NCBI GenBank assembly: GCA_003142185.1
Contig: PLOR01000085.1
Span: 1 to 39,229 of the forward strand
Reading direction: 5' to 3'
Length of the DNA stretch: 39,229 nucleotides
DNA from: Bryobacterales bacterium
GTDB lineage: Bacteria; Acidobacteriota; Terriglobia; Bryobacterales; Bryobacteraceae
The translations under genes and the position numbers were made by a program. Numbering within the stretch: position 1 is the first letter of the stretch; each line of letters starts with the position of its first letter. Shown here in pieces: positions 19,067-30,593 of this stretch. The notes below the pieces were generated by a model. That model did no database searches. It was not told the DNA's origin and saw nothing but the letters and a program-made list of their open reading frames with translations.

Positions 19067-20353
19067 ATGAACAAGCCCCAAACCAATAAGCCTCACGAAT
19101 CCGTGGTTCGCTTGGGCGTTGCTCCGGGTGTGGCTGAGAACCGGGTCGAACGCTTAGGCGGCAGGGCGTTGGTTTTGGTTGTTACGATTCTCGCGAGCGC
19201 GCTCGCAGTCATGCCCGCGCAGACCGGAGCTTCCCGCGCTGCGGGGATTCACGATGACCTTCGGAAAGCGGCCGAGTACCTCAAGGCGAACGACCCGAAC
19301 TCCGCGGTCAAGGAGTTCGATGCGGTTCTGGCACTCGATCCCAGGAACGCCGAGGCGTACGCAAACTTAGGTGTAATTGCGTTCTTTCTGCATGATTATC
19401 AGAAGGCGTCGCAATATCTGCGCAAGGCTCTCGTGATTGACCCGTCTTTAATAAAAACGCAGGCTCTCCTGGGAATTTGCGAAAGAAGATTGGGAAACCG
19501 TTCGGCACAGGAGTTACTGGAGAAATCATTTCCCGGATTGAAAGACAAAACCCTGCAAATCCAGACGGGATTGGAACTGGCTAATATCTACTACCAGCAG
19601 GGTAACCTCGATCGCACTGCTTCTGTGATGCGGTCGCTTGTGGATCTCGACCCCGACGATATCGAAATCCTATACATGGCGCAGCGGGTTTATTCCGATT
19701 TGGCCGACGACACCCTGAACAAGCTGGCGATCCTCGCTCCGGGTTCAGCCCGTATGCAGCAAGTGATCGCGGAGCGCCTGATCAATGGGGGCGACTTGAA
19801 GGGCGCCACGGAACACTATAGGAAGGCGCTGGAGATCAACCCACACCTGCCAGGCGTGCACTACGAACTGGCCGAAGCCATTTTGGAGTCGGCGCCGGGC
19901 GACGCGCAATCGGAGGCTGCGGCGGAACAAGAGCTGGAAACTGCCGTGAAGCTGGATGGCGACAGTTGTCGGACGGAATGCGAGTTTGGAAAGATTGCTT
20001 TTCGGCGTTCCGATCTGGACGCCGCATATGCTCACTACAGCCGCGCCTTTGCCCTGAATCCAGGAGATGCGGAAGCGCAAATCGGGCTTGGCCGCGTCCT
20101 GGCAACCACGGGGAAGCTCCTGGAGGCGGCGAAGTATCTGCGCATGGCCATTCAATCGGATCCGCTTAATGACGAGGCCCACTTTCGACTGGCATCGGTT
20201 TCGAAGCGTCTTCAGTTGAAAGATGAATCCGAGAAAGAACTACGGCTGTTCCAAGAAATCAAGCAAGCCAAGGAGCGTCTCAGTGCGTTGTACTGGCAGA
20301 TGAACAAGAAGCCCCCAGGGCAAAAGGATCAGACGCCCGATGCGGAACCATGA
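19067..20353 (+). CDS. TPR-repeat protein of the galactan locus
   Basis: A 428-residue protein with one hydrophobic segment near residues 33-52 (LVLVVTILASALAV), either an uncleaved anchor or a signal peptide with a long n-region, so probably exported or membrane-anchored. The rest is tetratricopeptide repeats from about 62 to 400, for example NAEAYANLGVIAFFLHDYQKA and HLPGVHYELAEAILES. No enzyme motif is visible. TPR proteins scaffold complexes, and similar ones often lie beside Oar-type receptors and hydrolases in acidobacteria. The stop overlaps the start of the lectin-GH53 gene by 14 bases, so the two are cotranscribed. Its exact role is unknown. Confidence 0.85.
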   Translation: MNKPQTNKPHESVVRLGVAPGVAENRVERLGGRALVLVVTILASALAVMPAQTGASRAAGIHDDLRKAAEYLKANDPNSAVKEFDAVLALDPRNAEAYANLGVIAFFLHDYQKASQYLRKALVIDPSLIKTQALLGICERRLGNRSAQELLEKSFPGLKDKTLQIQTGLELANIYYQQGNLDRTASVMRSLVDLDPDDIEILYMAQRVYSDLADDTLNKLAILAPGSARMQQVIAERLINGGDLKGATEHYRKALEINPHLPGVHYELAEAILESAPGDAQSEAAAEQELETAVKLDGDSCRTECEFGKIAFRRSDLDAAYAHYSRAFALNPGDAEAQIGLGRVLATTGKLLEAAKYLRMAIQSDPLNDEAHFRLASVSKRLQLKDESEKELRLFQEIKQAKERLSALYWQMNKKPPGQKDQTPDAEP

Positions 20354-22664
20354 AAACCCAGGGACTCTCTCCCCGCGTCTCCTCTTCTGCTGGATCATCA
20401 TGATTTCCGGCCTCTGCTGCGGCTATGCACGCGGAGGCGGCTCGGGCGGGTCGTCTCCTCTGACTACCATCGTACCTGCGCCGAGTCAGCAACCACAGGA
20501 GCCCACCGATGCCACTCCGGTCAACGGTGAGACCTATTACCTCCTGAACCAACTCAGCGGCCTCCATGCCGACCTGATTGACAACTCGACGACCGCTGGC
20601 GACCACATCGTTCAACAGCCGCGGAGTTTCACGAATCTCAGCCAAAGATGGGCCTTCACCAGGCTTTCCGACGGGTTTTGGCGGATCAGCAATACTCGCA
20701 ATAGCCTCTGTTTCGATAGCGCCGCCATCTTCCGCGTGACCCATCCGGTTAGAGATGACGCGGGCGGCGCGGCAGTGCGTTTAGAGGCTTGCCGGCAGCC
20801 ACCGCGTCGCGGGCGCGAGATGGAGGAGACTGGCCGGCAGGCGTCCGCGTGCTATGTGGTACAGAATCCTTGCGCGGCTATTGACTCGCAGCGGTGGGTC
20901 CTCAACGCGACAAGCAACGGCTACTATACGATCTCGAACAAGAGCACGGGTCTCGCGATCGATTTGTCCCAGAGATCCGTGTCGGCAGGAACGTCGCTGG
21001 ATCAAACCGAGCTATTGGGCACCGCAACTCAGAGCCAACAGTGGCTGCTGCGGCCAGCCTTCTTCCGCGGGGTGGACGATGCATTGCTGGAGAAGCAGGA
21101 GGCGGCCCGCGCGGCAATTGGGTTGTCCTGGTGGAAGGATGCCGGTCAGCAACAGGACGTGCTGGAGATTTTCAAGAACCATGGCGTCAACATGGTGCGC
21201 CTAAGGCCCAGCTCGGTGCCACCCTATGGAAACGCGTCGCAGCCAGAGTGCAGGGGCAATGCCTGCTACGCGGAAACAGAGGAGCAGGATTTGGATCTCG
21301 CGAAGCGTGCGAAGAATCTTGGCCTGAGTGTCGAACTGACCCTGCTGTTCGATGGCGGCGGCTCTGCCAGTGTCCCGGCGGCGTGGGCCAACGACACGCT
21401 GGGGGCGCAGTTGCAGAAGGACTTGTACACTTACGTGAAAGGCGAGATCCTGTCGTATCGGCAGGCAGGAACCATGCCGGATCTGGTGTCAATCGGCAAT
21501 GAAGTCGATACCGGTTTTCTCGGGTCACTCGGCAGCCCGACGGGAGCGGACTTTGGCGGTTTCGCCGCCTTGCAGATCCAGGCTATTCAGGCAGTGAACG
21601 ATGCGGCGGCGGACACCTCGTTTGGCCCCGCGATTCCGGCCCCGCTGACCTGCATTCACATTACACCGGCCTGGGACCTCACACAGTTTTTCACGCTCGC
21701 GAACCATAACAATATTCCCTATGATGCCATCTGCCAGAGCTACTACCCCATCTATCATGGTCCCTTGACCGAGCCGCAGGCTACCGCGTCAAATCCCAAC
21801 AACAAACCGATCGAACAAGACGTGCTGATTGACGCCGCCAATAACATTGGGAAGCCCATCTTTATCATCGAAACCGGGGAGCATTACGAGAGTGGCTTCG
21901 ACTCAAACGATCCGTGGTACGCTCAGCCAACCCCGGCGCTGCAGCGTCAATTTCTGGTGGATCTGCAGGGTGCGCAAAAGAGTTTGCCGAATAACCTGGG
22001 CATGGGAATGGAGTACTGGGATCCGGCCGGTGTAAACATACCCAATGCGAGCGGCGGATTTCTCAACGGCGATAGTCTGCAGGACGCGATCTACATCTGG
22101 AATGGCCTGACGCTCTTCGATAATGCGGATGCTTCCGGATCGACAAACGTAAGTGCTTCGAACTATTCCATGCTGCTTCCAGGCATTGATGCACTCGGCG
22201 GCAAGCTCGATCCCACTTTAGACTACAAGTTCGTCAATCTCAGCAGCGGGCAGATTCTGTCCGTTTCTCAAGCTTCTACCGCCGCCGGCGCACAGCTCGA
22301 CGCCGAGGTGGATAACGGAAATCCGACCTTGAGCCAGCAATGGCGCATTACGAGCAACAACGACGGGTATTTCCAGATCGCTGGTCTCAATCCAGGAGCG
22401 GGCAACACGACGAATGTACTGGATGATTTCGGCGGATCAACCTTGAGCGGAAACGCCATTGTTCAATCTCCATCCGGTACCGGCCCCGAACTGGAATGGA
22501 ATGTCATTTCAGCCGGCAACAGTTACTTCAGTTTTGTCAACCGCGTGAGCGGTTTGGTGTTGGACATGAACGGCGGAGTTGGCGCGCAAGCCGGGTTCGC
22601 CGTTCAAGAGCCGCAAAACGAAAACAGCGCGACGCAGCAATGGCAAATCGTTCCGGTCCACTAG
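20340..22664 (+). CDS. GH53 endo-beta-1,4-galactanase with ricin-type lectin modules at both ends
   Basis: Modular secreted enzyme of 774 residues. A hydrophobic leader (about 13-30) and Gly/Ser linker come first. Residues about 65-240 form a ricin-B-like beta-trefoil with QxW motifs (SQRWAF, SQRWVL, SQQWLL). The GH53 domain spans about 245-610: WWKDAGQQQDVLEIFKNHG, HGVNMVRLR, SIGNEVDTG with acid/base Glu388, QSYYPIYHG, and FIIETGEHY with nucleophile Glu511. A second ricin-like region (about 625-774) has SQQWRI, LEWNVI and TQQWQI. GH53 enzymes cut internal beta-1,4-galactosyl bonds in galactan and type I arabinogalactan. The lectin modules probably hold the enzyme on polymer. The ATG lies inside the end of the TPR gene. 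Odd: an Arg-rich stretch at about 130-175 interrupts the first trefoil. Confidence 0.88.
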   Translation: MRNHENPGTLSPRLLFCWIIMISGLCCGYARGGGSGGSSPLTTIVPAPSQQPQEPTDATPVNGETYYLLNQLSGLHADLIDNSTTAGDHIVQQPRSFTNLSQRWAFTRLSDGFWRISNTRNSLCFDSAAIFRVTHPVRDDAGGAAVRLEACRQPPRRGREMEETGRQASACYVVQNPCAAIDSQRWVLNATSNGYYTISNKSTGLAIDLSQRSVSAGTSLDQTELLGTATQSQQWLLRPAFFRGVDDALLEKQEAARAAIGLSWWKDAGQQQDVLEIFKNHGVNMVRLRPSSVPPYGNASQPECRGNACYAETEEQDLDLAKRAKNLGLSVELTLLFDGGGSASVPAAWANDTLGAQLQKDLYTYVKGEILSYRQAGTMPDLVSIGNEVDTGFLGSLGSPTGADFGGFAALQIQAIQAVNDAAADTSFGPAIPAPLTCIHITPAWDLTQFFTLANHNNIPYDAICQSYYPIYHGPLTEPQATASNPNNKPIEQDVLIDAANNIGKPIFIIETGEHYESGFDSNDPWYAQPTPALQRQFLVDLQGAQKSLPNNLGMGMEYWDPAGVNIPNASGGFLNGDSLQDAIYIWNGLTLFDNADASGSTNVSASNYSMLLPGIDALGGKLDPTLDYKFVNLSSGQILSVSQASTAAGAQLDAEVDNGNPTLSQQWRITSNNDGYFQIAGLNPGAGNTTNVLDDFGGSTLSGNAIVQSPSGTGPELEWNVISAGNSYFSFVNRVSGLVLDMNGGVGAQAGFAVQEPQNENSATQQWQIVPVH

Positions 22665-22694: not shown

Positions 22695-23732
22695 ATGAAA
22701 ACAGTTCCGAGCATCATTCTTCTAACCTCGCTGCTCCTGGCGGTGACGCCGCTTCGCGCGGCCGAGTATGCGGTTGGCGCCGATCTCTCTTTTCTAAAGC
22801 AAGCGGAGGACCACGGCAAGGCCTTCAAAGATATGGGTGTCGTCAAGCCGGGCCTGGAGATATTCAAGGATCACGGTTATAACTGGATTCGCCTGCGACT
22901 GTTTCACACACCCTCAGATCTGCCCAACAATCTCGAATACACCATCGCGCTCGCCAAAGACGCTAAGCGGCTGGGTTATCATTTTCTGCTCGACTACCAC
23001 TATTCGGACACCTGGGCCGATCCGGGCAAGCAATTCCTCCCAAAAGCCTGGGAAGGCATGTCTCATGCCCAACTGGTCAAAGCAGTGTTCGAATACACAA
23101 AGCAGACCATATCCGCGTTCCACGAGGCGGGCGTGCCTCCGGACATGGTGCAAATCGGCAATGAAGTCGTCAACGGCATGCTCTGGCCGGATGGCCGGCT
23201 CCCTGACAATTGGGACAACTTCGCGGATCTGATCAAAGCGGGCGTTGCGGGCGTGGACGCGGGAACTGGAGATGCGCCGCGTTCTCAAATCATGATTCAC
23301 ATCGATCGAGGCGGCGACAAGATTCGGACCAAGTATTTCTTCGACAAGCTCAATTCCTATCATGTCAATTATGACGTCATCGGCCAGTCTTACTATCCCT
23401 GGTGGCACGGCAGCCTGAACGATCTAAGGGAAAACATGGCTTTCATGGCGCGTGAGTATAGGAAGGATATCTTCGTCGTGGAGGCCGCGTACAACTGGAT
23501 GCCGGCGGAGTACACGAAGCGCCCTGGACCGTTTCCCGAAACGCCTGGCGGACAAAAGGAGTTTCTCGAAGAACTAAATCGGGTTGTGCAAGAAACTCCG
23601 GAGGGCCGAGGCAAAGGCGTGTTTTGGTGGGAACCAGCCGTGATTGGCCCGCTGGGTTCTAGAGGATTCTTCGACGAGGCTGGCAACTCTCTCCCAGTAA
23701 TGACGACATTCGACAAGTATACGCGGCATTAA
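22695..23732 (+). CDS. Secreted GH53 endo-beta-1,4-galactanase
   Basis: Single-domain GH53 enzyme of 345 residues with a cleavable signal peptide ending at LRAA. Classic family signatures are all present: GADLSFL, NWIRLRLF, YHYSDTWADPGKQ, VQIGNEVVNGMLWP with acid/base Glu157, GQSYYPWWHG, and VVEAAYNW with nucleophile Glu263, followed by GVFWWEPA. Length matches typical bacterial GH53 catalytic domains. It hydrolyses internal beta-1,4-galactosidic links, likely in the periplasm or outside the cell. Only 30 bases separate it from the lectin-bearing GH53, so it is the last gene of that operon. The AGGAGG upstream is about 13 bases from the ATG, longer than ideal. The protein is distant from its neighbour, so this is an old pairing and not a fresh duplication. 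Confidence 0.95.
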   Translation: MKTVPSIILLTSLLLAVTPLRAAEYAVGADLSFLKQAEDHGKAFKDMGVVKPGLEIFKDHGYNWIRLRLFHTPSDLPNNLEYTIALAKDAKRLGYHFLLDYHYSDTWADPGKQFLPKAWEGMSHAQLVKAVFEYTKQTISAFHEAGVPPDMVQIGNEVVNGMLWPDGRLPDNWDNFADLIKAGVAGVDAGTGDAPRSQIMIHIDRGGDKIRTKYFFDKLNSYHVNYDVIGQSYYPWWHGSLNDLRENMAFMAREYRKDIFVVEAAYNWMPAEYTKRPGPFPETPGGQKEFLEELNRVVQETPEGRGKGVFWWEPAVIGPLGSRGFFDEAGNSLPVMTTFDKYTRH

Positions 23733-24038: not shown

Positions 24039-26576
24039 ATGTCCGCGAAGAAAGACGATCCTGCCGTTCCCGACGACGCCGCATGCGCGCTGGATGTCGT
24101 TACCGAGGTCCGGCGCGAAGAGGCTCTGCTCAAGACGGGGGCCTTGCAGAACGCAATTTTCAACAGCGCCAACTTCTCCAGTATTGCCACCGACGAGAAG
24201 GGTGTCATTCAATTATTCAACGTCGGCGCCGAGCGCATGCTAGGCTATGCGGCCGCCGAAGTGTTGAACAAGATTACTCCGGCCGATATTTCCGATCCGC
24301 AGGAAGTCATCGCGCGCGCCAAGGCGTTGAGCCTGGAACTGGGAACCGGGATTGCTCCGGGCTTCGAGGCACTGGTGTTCAAGGCCTCGCGCGGGATTGA
24401 GGATATCTATGAACTGACCTACATCCGCAAGGACGGCAGCCGCTTTCCGGCGGTGGTGTCGGTCACGGCGCTGCGTGACGATAGCGACGCCATCATTGGC
24501 TATCTGTTAATCGGCACCGATAACACCGCGCGCAAGCGGGCGGAAGAGGCTCTGCTGAAGGCGGGAGCCTTGCAGGCCGCAATTTTCAACAGCGCCAACT
24601 TCTCCAGTATTGCCACCGACGAGAAGGGTGTCATTCAATTATTCAACGTCGGCGCCGAGCGCATGCTAGGCTACGCGGCCGCCGAAGTGTTGAACAAGAT
24701 TACTCCGGCCGATATTTCCGACCCGCAGGAAGTTATCGCACGCGCCAAGGCGTTGAGCCTGGAACTGGGTACCGGGATTGCTCCGGGCTTTGAGGCACTG
24801 GTGTTCAAGGCCTCACGCGGGATTGAAGATATCTATGAATTGACCTACATCCGCAAGGACGGCAGCCGCTTTCCGGCGGTGGTGTCGGTCACGGCGCTGC
24901 GCGACGATCGTGGCGGCATCATCGGCTATCTGTTAATCGGCACCGATAACACCGCGCGCAAGCAGGTGGAAGCGGACCAGAAAAAGCTCGATCAGCGCCT
25001 GCGCGACCAGCAGTTCTACACGCGGTCTCTCATCGAATCCAATATCGACGCGCTGATGACCACCGATCCGCTCGGCATTATTACCGACGTCAACAAGCAG
25101 ATGGAGGCGCTCACGGGTTGCACGCGCGACGAGTTGATTGGCGCGCCGTCCAAGAACTACTTTACCGATCCGGAGCGGGCCGAAGCGGCCATCAAGCTGG
25201 TGCTGAGCGAAAAGAAAGTCACCGACTACGAACTCACCGCGCGCGCCCGGGATGGCAAGAAAACAGAGGTATCCTACAACGCCACCACCTTCTACGACCG
25301 AGACAGGACGCTGCAGGGCGTATTGGCCGTGGCGCGGGACGTGACGGAGCGCAAGCGCAACGAGCAGGCGCTCCAGGAAACCAACGTCGAACTGGAGAGC
25401 GCCAAGTCCGCCGCGGAGCAAGCCAACCTCGCGAAATCGGATTTCCTTTCCAGCATGAGTCATGAGCTTCGCTCGCCGCTCAATGCGATCCTCGGCTTCG
25501 CCCAGCTCATCATTTCCGATTCCCCGCCACCAACGCCCTCCCAGACGGCAAGCATCGATCAGATTCTCCAGGCGGGATGGCATCTGCTGAAGTTGATCAA
25601 CGAAATTCTCGATCTCTCGGTGATCGAGTCCGGAAAGGTGTCGCTATCCACGGAAGCTGTCTCGTTGGCCGAGGTCATGTCCGAATGCCAGGCCATGATG
25701 GAGCCGCAAGCGCAACAGCTTGGCATCAACATGACCTTTCCCCGGTTCGACAACCCGTTCTTTGTCAGCGCCGACCGGACCCGGTTGAAGCAGATTGTCA
25801 TCAACCTGCTTTCCAACGCGATCAAATACAACAAGGAGCAGGGAACGGTTGTCGTGGATTGCGCCACCAGCGCTCCGGGACTCACTCGCATCAGCGTCAA
25901 GGACAGCGGTGCGGGATTGTCCCCGGAAAAGCTGGCGCAACTGTTCCAGCCCTTCAATCGTCTCGGACAAGAGGCGGGCGGCGTGGCAGGCACGGGCATC
26001 GGCCTGGTGGTGACCAAGCGGCTGGCGGAACTGATGGGGGGCGTACTTGGCGTAGAAAGCATTGCCGGCGCGGGAAGCGTGTTCTGGTGCGAATTGATCT
26101 CGTGCGCCGCACCACAACTTGTGGTCGAAAGCGGCGAAGCCGCAGCATTGGACGTACCGACAGTTGCGACCGGCGCGCGGCGGCTCACCCTGCTCTATGT
26201 CGAAGACAACCTGGCGAACATGAAGCTGGTGGAGCAACTCATCGCGCGGCGCCCCGACCTGCGACTGTTGACCGCGGTGAACGGTACTCTGGGCATCGAG
26301 GTAGCGCGCACCAGTCAGCCGACGATGATCCTGATGGACATCAATTTGCCCGGCATCAGCGGTGTGGAAGCATTGAAAGTCTTGCGCGGAGACCCGGCCA
26401 CGGCGCACATTCCCGTGGTTGCCCTCAGTGCGAACGCAATGCCACGCGACATCGAGAAGGGCTTGCAGGCAGGATTCTTCCGGTATCTCACCAAACCAAT
26501 CAAGATCAATGAGTTCATGCACACACTGGACGCAGCATTGGAATTCGCTCGACAGGAGGCGGGTCATGCCAGGTAA
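24039..26576 (+). CDS. Hybrid sensor histidine kinase (PAS-PAS-PAS-HisKA-HATPase-REC)
   Basis: Soluble, cytoplasmic hybrid kinase of 845 residues with no signal peptide or membrane segment. Three PAS/PAC units lie at about 35-165, 175-310 and 325-445. The first two are nearly identical in protein and DNA. HisKA follows with His475 in SMSHELRSPLNAILGF. The HATPase has the N box LLSNAIKYN, KDSGAGLS and GTGIGLVV. A C-terminal receiver (about 715-835) has phosphoacceptor Asp767 in LMDINLPG and the Lys of LTKPI. The start is set by TGGAGG seven bases before the ATG. The next gene, a REC-PP2C phosphatase, begins 15 bases after the stop, so the two form a signalling operon. The PAS ligand cannot be read from sequence. 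Confidence 0.94.
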   Translation: MSAKKDDPAVPDDAACALDVVTEVRREEALLKTGALQNAIFNSANFSSIATDEKGVIQLFNVGAERMLGYAAAEVLNKITPADISDPQEVIARAKALSLELGTGIAPGFEALVFKASRGIEDIYELTYIRKDGSRFPAVVSVTALRDDSDAIIGYLLIGTDNTARKRAEEALLKAGALQAAIFNSANFSSIATDEKGVIQLFNVGAERMLGYAAAEVLNKITPADISDPQEVIARAKALSLELGTGIAPGFEALVFKASRGIEDIYELTYIRKDGSRFPAVVSVTALRDDRGGIIGYLLIGTDNTARKQVEADQKKLDQRLRDQQFYTRSLIESNIDALMTTDPLGIITDVNKQMEALTGCTRDELIGAPSKNYFTDPERAEAAIKLVLSEKKVTDYELTARARDGKKTEVSYNATTFYDRDRTLQGVLAVARDVTERKRNEQALQETNVELESAKSAAEQANLAKSDFLSSMSHELRSPLNAILGFAQLIISDSPPPTPSQTASIDQILQAGWHLLKLINEILDLSVIESGKVSLSTEAVSLAEVMSECQAMMEPQAQQLGINMTFPRFDNPFFVSADRTRLKQIVINLLSNAIKYNKEQGTVVVDCATSAPGLTRISVKDSGAGLSPEKLAQLFQPFNRLGQEAGGVAGTGIGLVVTKRLAELMGGVLGVESIAGAGSVFWCELISCAAPQLVVESGEAAALDVPTVATGARRLTLLYVEDNLANMKLVEQLIARRPDLRLLTAVNGTLGIEVARTSQPTMILMDINLPGISGVEALKVLRGDPATAHIPVVALSANAMPRDIEKGLQAGFFRYLTKPIKINEFMHTLDAALEFARQEAGHAR
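24117..24542 (+). repeat. Tandem intragenic duplication, copy 1 (PAS unit)
   Basis: First copy of a 426-base (142-codon) in-frame repeat encoding one PAS/PAC unit. Aligned by eye with copy 2 it shows about 20 mismatches, many at third positions, and no gaps. Confidence 0.95.
24543..24962 (+). repeat. Tandem intragenic duplication, copy 2 (PAS unit)
   Basis: Second copy, directly abutting the first. It begins at the same GAAGAGGCTCTGCT and stays alignable to about 24962. Differences cluster at the start and at a short segment near 24908-24918 (DSDA versus DRGG). Confidence 0.95.
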
Positions 26577-26591
26577 ATCGGGACGAAGGTC

Positions 26592-27815
26592 ATGGTCAGT
26601 TTAGCCGACATTCTGAACGCCAGAATCCTGGTGGTTGACGATCAGGAAGCCAACGTCCGTCTGCTGGAGGGTATGCTGCGTATCGCAGGCTATGCTTCCA
26701 TCGAGTCTACGATGGACCCGCGCGAGGTCTGCGAGCTTCACCGCAAAAATCGATACAGCCTGATCCTGCTCGATCTCCAAATGCCTGGCATGGACGGATT
26801 CCAAGTGATGGAGGGGCTGAAAGAGATCGAAACAGACGGTTATCTTCCGGTCCTCGTCATCACCGCGCAGCCGGCTCACAAGTTGCGCGCTCTCGAAGCG
26901 GGCGCTAAGGATTTCGTCAGCAAACCGTTCGATCTAGCCGAGCTGCGCGCGCGCGTTCACAACATTCTGGAAGTGCGCCTGTTGCACCTGGAAACCAAGA
27001 ACTACAGCAAAGTGCTGGAGGAGACGGTCCGGGAACTCGAGGCAAGCCGCGAGGTGATTCGCCTCAAGACCCTGGAGGAGCGAAAGAAGAGCGAGCAGGA
27101 ATTAGCCCTCGCGCAGGAAACTCAGGAAAGCCTGCTGCCCCGTTCCCTGCCACAGGTTGAGAATCTTCGCATCCATGCATTTAACACTCCCACACGCTAT
27201 GTGGGAGGGGATTTCTACGATTTCCTGCAGCTAGATTCAGGGGATTGGATGGGGGTTCTGGCAGACGTCTCAGGCAAGGGGATGTCCGCAGCCTTGCTAA
27301 GTTCGATGGTGCTTGGCGCCCTCAGCATGGAATTTCACTCAAGGACCCAACCGCAGGAGGTCTTGGAGCGGGTTAACCGGCTACTTTGCGAGAAATCTCT
27401 TCCATACCAGTTCGTGACGCTCTTTCTCTTTGTCCTGAACCCACAGGGCATGGGACAATTCATCAGCGCGGGACATACTCCAGCCTATTTGTTCCATTCT
27501 GCAACGGGAAAAATCGAAGAGCTGGGTTCTAACGCCAATGTCCTGGGGCTGTTCGATGACGCCTCTTATGAATCCAGCGTGTTCCGTCTCGACAAAGGAG
27601 ACATTCTCGTGGTGTATTCCGACGGCCTTACGGACGCAGAAAACCCGCAGGGAGAGATGTTCGGAGAGGAAAGGCTACTAAGACTCATCCGGCAAGAGGC
27701 CCCCTCGGGAAGTCAGGCCATCGAGCAGAGGCTCTTGAAAGCCATTGAGGCATTCACTCAGGGCTTGCCGCAGACCGATGACATTACCTTCGTAGTCGTT
27801 GAAAAATGTCAGTGA
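26592..27815 (+). CDS. Response regulator with PP2C-type phosphatase output (RsbU-like)
   Basis: Cytoplasmic signalling protein of 407 residues. The receiver domain (about 10-125) has VVDDQE, phosphoacceptor Asp61 in LLDLQMPG, and Lys in VSKPF. A coiled-coil linker (about 135-180; LEETVRELEASREVIRLK) joins it to a SpoIIE/PP2C phosphatase domain (about 195-405). Metal-binding segments are GGDFYDF, LADVSGKGMSAAL, YSDGLTDAEN and QTDDITFVVV. Such proteins dephosphorylate anti-anti-sigma factors in partner switching. No anti-sigma or STAS gene is in the window, so the target is elsewhere. The hybrid kinase upstream is the likely phosphodonor. After the stop, 117 bases separate it from a convergent gene, with no clear terminator hairpin. 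Confidence 0.93.
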   Translation: MVSLADILNARILVVDDQEANVRLLEGMLRIAGYASIESTMDPREVCELHRKNRYSLILLDLQMPGMDGFQVMEGLKEIETDGYLPVLVITAQPAHKLRALEAGAKDFVSKPFDLAELRARVHNILEVRLLHLETKNYSKVLEETVRELEASREVIRLKTLEERKKSEQELALAQETQESLLPRSLPQVENLRIHAFNTPTRYVGGDFYDFLQLDSGDWMGVLADVSGKGMSAALLSSMVLGALSMEFHSRTQPQEVLERVNRLLCEKSLPYQFVTLFLFVLNPQGMGQFISAGHTPAYLFHSATGKIEELGSNANVLGLFDDASYESSVFRLDKGDILVVYSDGLTDAENPQGEMFGEERLLRLIRQEAPSGSQAIEQRLLKAIEAFTQGLPQTDDITFVVVEKCQ

Positions 27816-28646: not shown

Positions 28647-30593
28647 TCATGACGCCTTAGGCCGGATCAGTTCCTGAATCTGCTCGACAGCCTGCGCCAG
28701 GCTCGTGAGCAATCGATCTGGTTGGGTTCGCTCGAAACGCGCCTTGGCCTTTTCCGTATCGCCGCTGAACCCCCAGACTCCGATTACAAGCTTGACCTTC
28801 GGAAAGCGTTCCCGAATTAGTTTGCACATGGTCCGCGCGGGTGGAAAGGCAAAAGGCGGCAACGCGGAGATGCAGATGACGTCGTCTTGTCTTATCTCCA
28901 GGAGCGCCAGCATCTCCACGAGGGAAGCGTGGGCTATCGGAAGAGACAGAGCCGCGTGGCCCGCCTGCTCCAGGATTTGCGCCAGCATAGCGGCGGTGAC
29001 CTCATCGGCCCGATCGTTTGCGGGAAGGCAGATTATCCTGGCGCTGAGACGCTCCGCCGGGCCTGATTCCGCCGCGGCATCTTCGGATTGGGATGAATCG
29101 TGCGCCGGTTGGTGCTCCGAAAGCTCGGTAATCATATCGTTGATGCTGAGAAAGAGAAACTCCTCCCTGGTCGGGTCAATCGCCCCTTTGTGGCGATCCT
29201 GCTCGACCAGACTCAAAGCGGGTATGAGCACCGAATCGTATAATTCCACCAAAGGTCTTGCTTCCAGGAACCGGTCCACAATAGCGTGCGCCTCCGGCTG
29301 GTCCATCGCCAGTAAGCGCTGGTAGATCTGAGCTTCCGCCCCCAGAACTACTTCATCTCCCAGCAGGACATGAAGAAAAGAGAGCTGAGGAACGTAGCGG
29401 CCCAGCACAACGACGCAAACCGTGAGAGGTGTAGACAGAATGAGGCCGGCGGGTCCCCACAGAATCGTCCAAAAGACAACCGCCACCAGCAGCGCCAACG
29501 AAGAGATTCCCGTGTTTGCCCCGTAAAGCCACGGCTCGACGAAGTTGCCAATGATCATTTCCAGGCCGGCAAACAGCAGGAAAACCAGCAGCGGCGGCAG
29601 CCAGTTGTCAAAAGCCGCCAACGAGAGTGCGATCGGCAGCGCGGCGGCAACCATCGTGCCGATATACGGCACGATGCGCAGGAGGCCGGCGACGACTCCC
29701 CATAACGCGGGATAGGGCACGCCAATCCAGTACAGACCGAATCCGAACAGAGCTCCAAAGCCGGCATTGACCAGGATCTGCATCAACAGGTATCGGCTGA
29801 CACGTTGCGCAGCGTCGTCGAGCACTTGCGTCATGATGTTGATCTGACCGAGTCCGACCAGCCGGAAAAGGCGATGTCTCAAGTCGTGTCTCTTGATCAG
29901 CATGAAGACCGTGAAGACGAGGACAAGTCCGGTCACTGCCAGAGGCCGAAGAACGGGCTGAACCAGATCGCGAACGTACTCCAATTCATTTGCCGGCGGT
30001 TGCACGACCTGTACAGGCAGGGGAATCCCAGGAGCACTCGGCGCAGTGCGCTGCTTCCGATTCTGCGCCGGAGGAGCAGGCTCCGGAGAGGGTGCCGCCG
30101 GGCTGGAGAATTCGCGCGCGATTTCCTTAACGCTGTTGGCCGCAAGGCCAAACGGTCCCGTGGTGGGAATGCGAAGCGCTGCCATCTTGGCTTGGATGTT
30201 TTGGCGGTACCGGGGAAGCTCCTGGGCGGCGTTAACGAGCTGAATTGCGATGATCCCGGCAATGCAGCCAGCCGCCGCTATCGTTACCAGGACGGTCACA
30301 GCGACGGACGGTACGCGGCCGATCCGCGATCTTTCGAGGAGCGCGACCACAGGGGTCAAAACGAACGTCAGAATGAGAGCAAATGCCAGGGGGATTAGAA
30401 TTTCGCGGGCGAAGTACAGCACCGCGATCGTACCAAACAGCGTGACCATCGCCCAGTTATTGGAGCTTGGGAGATGCCGGTTTGACGGGCTGATGGCCAC
30501 CGGTGCTGAAGCGCTGTGCAAGCCAATCGCGCTTGTCGCGGGACCCTTTTCGGGGCGCCTGGAAAAAAACGGTCGATTCCAGAAGAAAGCCAT
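28647..30593 (-). CDS. AI-2E-family (PerM-type) permease with C-terminal cobalamin-binding-like domain
   Basis: Inner-membrane protein of 648 residues. Residues about 45-440 match the AI-2E transporter/PerM family. Two or three membrane helices come first (ILIPLAFALILTFVLTPVV), then a long Pro/Ala-rich periplasmic insert (about 160-200), then the signature helix cluster with GVVAGLLRIVPYIG and IIGNFVEPWLYG. After residue 450 the chain is soluble. A helical linker leads to about 530-640, predicted as alternating beta/alpha: ARIICLPANDRADEVTAAM, DDVICISALPPF and KVKLVIGVWGFSG. This resembles the B12-binding Rossmann fold but lacks the DxHxxG motif. Substrate is unknown; members export diverse solutes. 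The neighbours give no hint. Confidence 0.85.
   Translation of the reverse strand: MAFFWNRPFFSRRPEKGPATSAIGLHSASAPVAISPSNRHLPSSNNWAMVTLFGTIAVLYFAREILIPLAFALILTFVLTPVVALLERSRIGRVPSVAVTVLVTIAAAGCIAGIIAIQLVNAAQELPRYRQNIQAKMAALRIPTTGPFGLAANSVKEIAREFSSPAAPSPEPAPPAQNRKQRTAPSAPGIPLPVQVVQPPANELEYVRDLVQPVLRPLAVTGLVLVFTVFMLIKRHDLRHRLFRLVGLGQINIMTQVLDDAAQRVSRYLLMQILVNAGFGALFGFGLYWIGVPYPALWGVVAGLLRIVPYIGTMVAAALPIALSLAAFDNWLPPLLVFLLFAGLEMIIGNFVEPWLYGANTGISSLALLVAVVFWTILWGPAGLILSTPLTVCVVVLGRYVPQLSFLHVLLGDEVVLGAEAQIYQRLLAMDQPEAHAIVDRFLEARPLVELYDSVLIPALSLVEQDRHKGAIDPTREEFLFLSINDMITELSEHQPAHDSSQSEDAAAESGPAERLSARIICLPANDRADEVTAAMLAQILEQAGHAALSLPIAHASLVEMLALLEIRQDDVICISALPPFAFPPARTMCKLIRERFPKVKLVIGVWGFSGDTEKAKARFERTQPDRLLTSLAQAVEQIQELIRPKAS

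Follow-up and report, generated by a model that had tools for sequence, protein, structure and literature searches.

Encoded in a 39,229-nucleotide stretch of DNA from a Bryobacterales bacterium of the Acidobacteriota (contig PLOR01000085.1 of assembly GCA_003142185.1, hereafter the window), an AI-2E-family permease bears a soluble C-terminal tail, which is probably a repurposed B12-type module, i.e., of the CarH/AerR corrinoid type, regulating the permease in cis in response to a putative ligand. The same replacement by Asp of the His that ligates cobalt is found across related transporters and suggests, at the level of sequence, that an old B12 sensor has been re-used for transporter control. 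A more specific version, in which the module has swapped this His for Asp, with a basic residue as its probable partner, senses a different ligand and directly controls a clade of permeases, is advanced tentatively and, taken in all its parts, appears rather unlikely; the estimates given for these readings and for the alternatives below overlap and do not sum to one.

The gene belongs to a genome of 5.8 Mb in 119 contigs, and its features are collected in Table 1. As the preliminary description had it, the product is an AI-2E-family permease, the match to PF01594 (AI-2E_transport) reaching 150.1 bits for a cut-off of 34.3. Its four named relatives, at 78-85% identity, come from three Bryobacterales MAGs and one Acidobacteria MAG, by which the host is identified as an acidobacterium; the N-terminus MAFFWNR is common to the window protein and its close relatives L001 and L002, and reads MAFSWNR in L003. 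Two more AI-2E ORFs are present in the host genome, of 353 and 435 aa, both without the tail. Since the last hydrophobic segment ends at about 402-412, the soluble part begins before residue 450, from which it had originally been counted: solubility itself stands, but the boundary had been drawn too late and a helical cap overlooked, and the start then given, 29260, falls one base inside codon 445. Further into the tail, a hydrophobic stretch of 19 residues (547-565; 1.71) was considered as a membrane helix and rejected, being read as the buried β2/α2.

Table 1. Location of the AI-2E-family permease gene and of its parts in the window.
Feature	Position	Strand	Basis
AI-2E-family permease with B12-type tail, 648 aa	28647..30593	(-)	Intact ORF
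AI-2E membrane domain, residues about 46-395	29409..30458	(-)	PF01594 E 1.1e-43, two stretches, best 206-395
Helical cap, B12-binding_2 type, residues about 410-492	29118..29366	(-)	PF02607 421-474; four predicted helices, low confidence; hhalign; dN/dS 0.17-0.26
Unconstrained linker, residues 493-516	29046..29117	(-)	dN/dS 0.95-2.9, six pairs, few sites
Rossmann (flavodoxin-like) B12-type domain, residues 517-645	28659..29045	(-)	PF02310; model; hhalign; dN/dS 0.09-0.30
R528-A-D530-E-V-T533 replacing DxHxxG; Asp530 occupies the site of the cobalt-ligating His	28995..29012	(-)	Three alignments; 43/47 Asp, 4 Leu
S576-A-L578, SxL equivalent, 42 residues past T533	28860..28868	(-)	SxL in 27/47 tails
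G605-V606-W607, GG equivalent, 26 residues past L578	28773..28781	(-)	Trp at 607 in 39/47 tails

When the full-length protein is scanned against Pfam, PF02607 matches at 421-474 (E 2.7e-4) and PF02310 at 530-606 (E 1.1e-3), both below the Pfam cut-off; when the tail is scanned alone, PF02607 reaches 23.7 bits for a cut-off of 23 and PF02310 21.7 bits for a cut-off of 32.1. Among 29 tails, PF02310 matches 16 and PF02607 10 at E 0.01, and one member of the deepest branch exceeds the PF02310 cut-off with 42.7 bits. By hhalign, the profile of these 29 tails aligned with three CarH-type proteins (L062-L064), first found with the tail profile itself and thus not a blind choice of control, at a probability of 99.3% (E 4.4e-20) over 202 columns, covering their caps and running through cap and Rossmann domain in order, against 0.0-2.2% for the controls, namely a reversed profile, five with shuffled columns and the receivers encoded in the window. 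The three proteins are 358-374 aa long, pass both Pfam cut-offs (PF02607 and PF02310) and were read as soluble without a topology run. The B12-binding-like domain initially proposed for this permease is thereby borne out and, as far as sequence profiles go, homology of the tail to a B12-type module is confirmed as more than chance. In a profile search of the PDB, the best match was the cobalamin-binding protein 8jbs at E 0.0011, with the CarH structure 5c8a at E 0.0077, both being weak though consistent; the first nine matches comprise photocobilins, cobalamin-binding proteins and CarH-type regulators, three of them bearing no title beyond “Probable transcriptional regulator”. Searched by sequence against the PDB, the window tail on its own gave three hits, which at E 0.14-0.16 were put down to chance, and NCBIfam provided no name above cut-off for the window protein. 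A response-regulator receiver was also considered for the tail and rejected, as hhalign gave 0.2% against the two receivers of the window and the β3-end strand, ICISALPP, carries no phosphoacceptor Asp; receivers nevertheless reach Z 11-12.7 as fold matches.

Structure models were predicted from shallow alignments, i.e., the window protein with L001-L004, and are consequently weak. The full-length model has a mean pLDDT of 41.5; from residue 521 onwards, block means lie at 62-78, except for 54 at 551-560 and 52 at 641-648, and regular β/α elements follow one another from β1 (519-524) through α5 (632-643). The tail-only model (mean pLDDT 52.7) has four helices and then a β/α domain. The β/α rhythm previously noticed in the last 120 or so residues thus corresponds to the predicted order of a flavodoxin-like domain. 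Over cap and Rossmann domain, the best VIA-align matches are the SCHIC domain of AppA (4hh1, Z 14.1, rmsd 3.9, 196 residues aligned), photocobilins and corrinoid proteins; Foldseek with the tail places the B12 domain of a Chloracidobacterium MerR protein first (8jbs, E 2.8e-5, but a TM-score of 0.31), and in the structural comparison of the tail alone B12 proteins, the BaeR receiver and others tie. As such, the predicted fold is supportive, not decisive, and the case rests on the sequence profiles.

The tail is no peculiarity of one genome. A search of 396 Acidobacteriota genomes gave matches to the tail in 51 at E 0.001 and in 25 at E 1e-60 or better, with G367 as one more in which the tail is broken; the four weaker matches that were read (L062-L065) are B12 proteins or MetH-like. 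Outside the Acidobacteriota, where the sample consists of plasmid records only, 273 records match the window protein somewhere, of which 155 over at least 80% of its length, and 181 match the tail, of which 106 over at least 80%; most are from Rhizobiaceae, and tailed members also occur in a betaproteobacterium (L066) and a planctomycete (L070). Among the plasmid matches listed, the gene, where it carries an annotation, is named only “AI-2E family transporter,” so that the tail is easily overlooked. After collapsing identical tails, 64 ORFs from Acidobacteriota, Alpha- and Betaproteobacteria and one planctomycete gave 47 distinct tails, a set that includes L004 and leaves out L005-L010 and, as failing the full-tail filter, L061 (broken over two frames) and L062-L065. 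Surveyed from the side of the family, the tail was found on one of the 29 AI-2E ORFs read, mostly the best match per genome, and is absent from the other 28. No virus-borne copy was found in two scans of viral contigs. Two copies of the tailed gene are divided between two frames, i.e., L004:4761-6886 (CTSoil_012 MAG) and L061 (genome G367), each being either a pseudogene or an assembly error.

In a tree of the membrane domain only, in which L004 is absent, 46 tailed proteins form one clade with support 100/99, the untailed sample consisting only of 28 Acidobacteriota sequences, several of them on long branches. This topology fits a single fusion event, with permease and tail joined at or before the common ancestor of the clade. 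Four tails with Leu at the cobalt-ligand position are sister to the rest and keep GExLxLG and GG, a pattern that would fit a CarH-like ancestor decaying step by step. Of the 47 tails, six carry 176-207 extra residues. A GAF domain (E 2e-13 to 6e-17) comes after the tail in all six of these long members (L018, L029, L023, L035, L066 and L067), which are divided between two separate branches; GGDEF gave no match in these six.

Three alignments agree on one register for the Rossmann domain, in which R528, D530 and T533 take the place of D, H and G of DxHxxG, the canonical spacing being DxHxxG-(41-42)-SxL-(26-28)-GG. The reading of PANDRADEVT as standing where the cobalamin motif has been lost is upheld in all three. 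Across the 47 fused tails, the cobalt-ligand position is occupied by Asp in 43, by Leu in 4 and by His in none, with two aligners, and the CarH-type controls L062-L064 have His in three out of three with MAFFT, one being gapped there with hmmalign. The D position of the motif holds 14 residue types and the G position 5, which argues that Asp has been selected at the His site; the glycine of the motif is lost in 43/47 tails. Of the 43 Asp tails, 41 have Arg or Lys at position 587, as no Leu tail does, and Asp530 perhaps pairs with this basic residue; since the four Leu tails are one clade, the covariation amounts to a single change, with two exceptions, and is a hint only. The CarH-type signature (GxxW, EH, GxxH, GxxxP) is absent, the window protein having E464 and R467, then E477 (kept) and E478, D527 and D530, and P552 and A556; the His of EH is left in 5/47 tails. 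A CarH-type photoreceptor was accordingly rejected, and the tail is not a His-on cobalamin photoreceptor of this type.

One alternative is that the tail still binds a corrinoid without His ligation and serves as a light-independent hydroxocobalamin sensor regulating the permease. Of the 14 signature positions counted, the window protein retains E477, S576, L578 and G605, with S576 and G605 each kept in 34/47 tails, but the other 10 differ, the cap Trp of the CarH signature being Arg in 34/47 tails and Trp in none, and a near-fixed Asp at the ligand site would be unexpected in a corrinoid pocket. In its favour is HaAI-2E, which is reported to have an Arg at the cobalt-His position, to show no light response, and to bind hydroxocobalamin (OHCbl) in vitro and not AdoCbl or MeCbl (PMC11796333), although this OHCbl may be coordinated by another residue. 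A corrinoid sensor is, on balance, quite unlikely; nonetheless, as HaAI-2E bound hydroxocobalamin without the His, the cofactor “other than cobalamin” first put forward for the window protein is not established.

A second alternative, in which the ligand of the tail is a different tetrapyrrole or cofactor (heme, following AppA SCHIC, or a bilin) and the tail acts as a redox or light sensor on the permease, draws on the first rank of SCHIC in the structural comparison over cap and Rossmann domain, a ranking obtained from a low-confidence model. In SCHIC, which serves as the precedent, the heme-ligand His is shifted by two residues and the cap Trp is replaced (PMC9144470). Such a shifted His was looked for in the window protein, which has R528 and V532, and position 528 is His in 1/47 tails. 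Further His-rich columns were found in the Rossmann domain at 546 (16/47), 585 (13), 596 (11) and 643 (8), and between 400 and 518 at 400 (24/47), 408 (15) and 468 (19), the last lying in the cap beside the former Trp and counting in favour of a heme or bilin; against this, no His is widely conserved. Two cysteines of the window protein, C522 (29028-29030) and C574 (28872-28874), presumably on adjacent strands by the usual strand order of the fold, form a possible redox pair; Cys is found at 522 in 36/47 tails and at 574 in 24/47, but at both in only 18/47. Altogether, a heme or bilin sensor is very doubtful.

To return to a repurposed module with a function of its own, dN/dS was computed for six pairs among the window protein, L001, L002 and L003. 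Ratios of 0.31-0.42 were obtained for TM3-8 and 0.22-0.54 for TM1-2, and, by this sequence measure, cap and Rossmann domain (Table 1) show no less constraint than the transporter; purifying selection on both indicates that the tail is functional. The best conserved positions of the 47 tails include Y424 (47/47), R426 and L460 (46 each), A435 (45) and P598 (44), followed by L428, D431 and D530 (43 each), and the two top-scoring columns, Y424 and R426, fall in cap helix 1, close to the membrane. The ligand edge of the Rossmann domain is not significantly more conserved than the rest, 11 of 124 circular shifts being as high. Both observations, together with the loss of the motif glycine, would also fit a ligand-free tail, i.e., one that serves as a scaffold in oligomer assembly, in folding or for binding a partner. 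More than a spacer is, however, suggested by the near-fixed Asp with its basic 587, by a Rossmann dN/dS going down to 0.09 and by the GAF domain added after the tail in two separate branches, and such a scaffold is regarded as possible, if somewhat unlikely.

As for the side of the membrane, the tail had been placed in the cytoplasm from the outset. GAF and DGC domains work in the cytoplasm, and the former is found after the tail in the long members; residue 399, just past the last membrane helix, is Arg or Lys in 43/47 tails. For HaAI-2E, a C-terminal DGC is likewise described (PMC11796333). On the opposite side, for UPF0118, an antiporter of the AI-2E family, PhoA fusion located the C terminus to the periplasm (PMC7221264, section 13). 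A cytoplasmic tail is, all considered, the better guess and likely, the original placement having the first three counts in its favour and the last against it.

An operon partner was considered and rejected, none of the seven window neighbours compared having a counterpart at E 1e-8 in those flanks of L001-L004 that were covered; with no neighbours in common, the permease to which it is fused is the most likely target of the tail, in keeping with action in cis. Among these neighbours, a receiver-SpoIIE phosphatase at 26592-27815 (+) lies near the AI-2E gene and is not conserved in L001-L004. In two Azospirillum plasmids (L031 and L075), siaB/siaC-like genes adjoin the tailed gene, again with a SpoIIE phosphatase nearby, and no siaB/siaC-like neighbours were found in 12 other annotated regions of the tailed gene. 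Elsewhere in the window, a hybrid histidine kinase (24039-26576, +) has near-identical PAS repeats 1 and 2, which by the look of their sequences are a recent internal duplication and precede one more PAS, then HisKA, HATPase and a receiver. Two adjacent GH53-family proteins are encoded at 20340-22664 and 22695-23732 (+), the first with ricin-type lectin repeats.

Under the preferred reading of a repurposed module, the following sequence of events can be proposed: (i) a corrinoid module of cap and Rossmann domain would have been joined to an AI-2E permease in or before the common ancestor of a clade whose members today span several phyla, (ii) the tail would act in cis from the cytoplasmic side, (iii) a small molecule or partner protein would be accommodated at the cleft between cap and Rossmann domain, where Asp530, perhaps with the basic residue at 587, would replace His-cobalt ligation, and (iv) the resulting change would be relayed via the conserved cap helix 1 (Y424, R426 and D431), which comes soon after the last membrane helix, and would open or close the permease. 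It is in this sense that we infer gating of the permease by the tail. AI-2 export by YdgG and Na+/H+ antiport are among the functions reported for the AI-2E family (PMC7221264). AI-2E proteins were found in 13 of 14 control genomes, archaea included, and their substrates and control are poorly known. A conserved module of known fold, built into the transporters of one clade, would offer a direct handle on regulation. Should a different ligand indeed be sensed, it would constitute a new ligand class for the B12-type fold, and the permease the first transporter known to be gated by this fold. The near-fixed change from His to Asp looks like a cofactor fold outliving its defining cofactor ligand.

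Respective to known systems, TqsA/YdgG, PerM and the UPF0118 antiporter share the PF01594 membrane domain with the window protein, and we know of no such tail on any of them. The closest published architecture is that of HaAI-2E (WP_052573826), composed of AI-2E, CBD and DGC, where the C-terminal position of the DGC comes from the authors' AlphaFold model (PMC11796333). Like the window protein, it is described as having, after the AI-2E domain, one of cobalamin-binding type that lacks the cobalt His; unlike it, it continues into a DGC, whereas the window protein ends after the Rossmann domain. At the His position, Arg in HaAI-2E faces Asp in the window protein, a comparison made by published description in which a difference of register is possible, R528 lying two residues upstream. 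With HaAI-2E, one protein of this architecture that has lost the His is already in print; no other paper on a fusion of AI-2E with a B12-type tail was found in the openly accessible literature, among the matches listed, and neither the clade-wide Asp, the single clade, the GAF-bearing forms nor the constraint was met there. With the CarH and CtMerR type of module (PF02607 and PF02310), the window tail shares the order of cap then Rossmann domain, the motif spacings and profile homology over both domains; it differs in having lost the signature and in being attached to a permease instead of a DNA-binding domain. AppA SCHIC, the best structural match of a weak model, resembles the window tail as a B12-type module without the cobalamin His in place, the window protein differing from it by the absence of a shifted His and of a BLUF domain and by carrying its module on a transporter.
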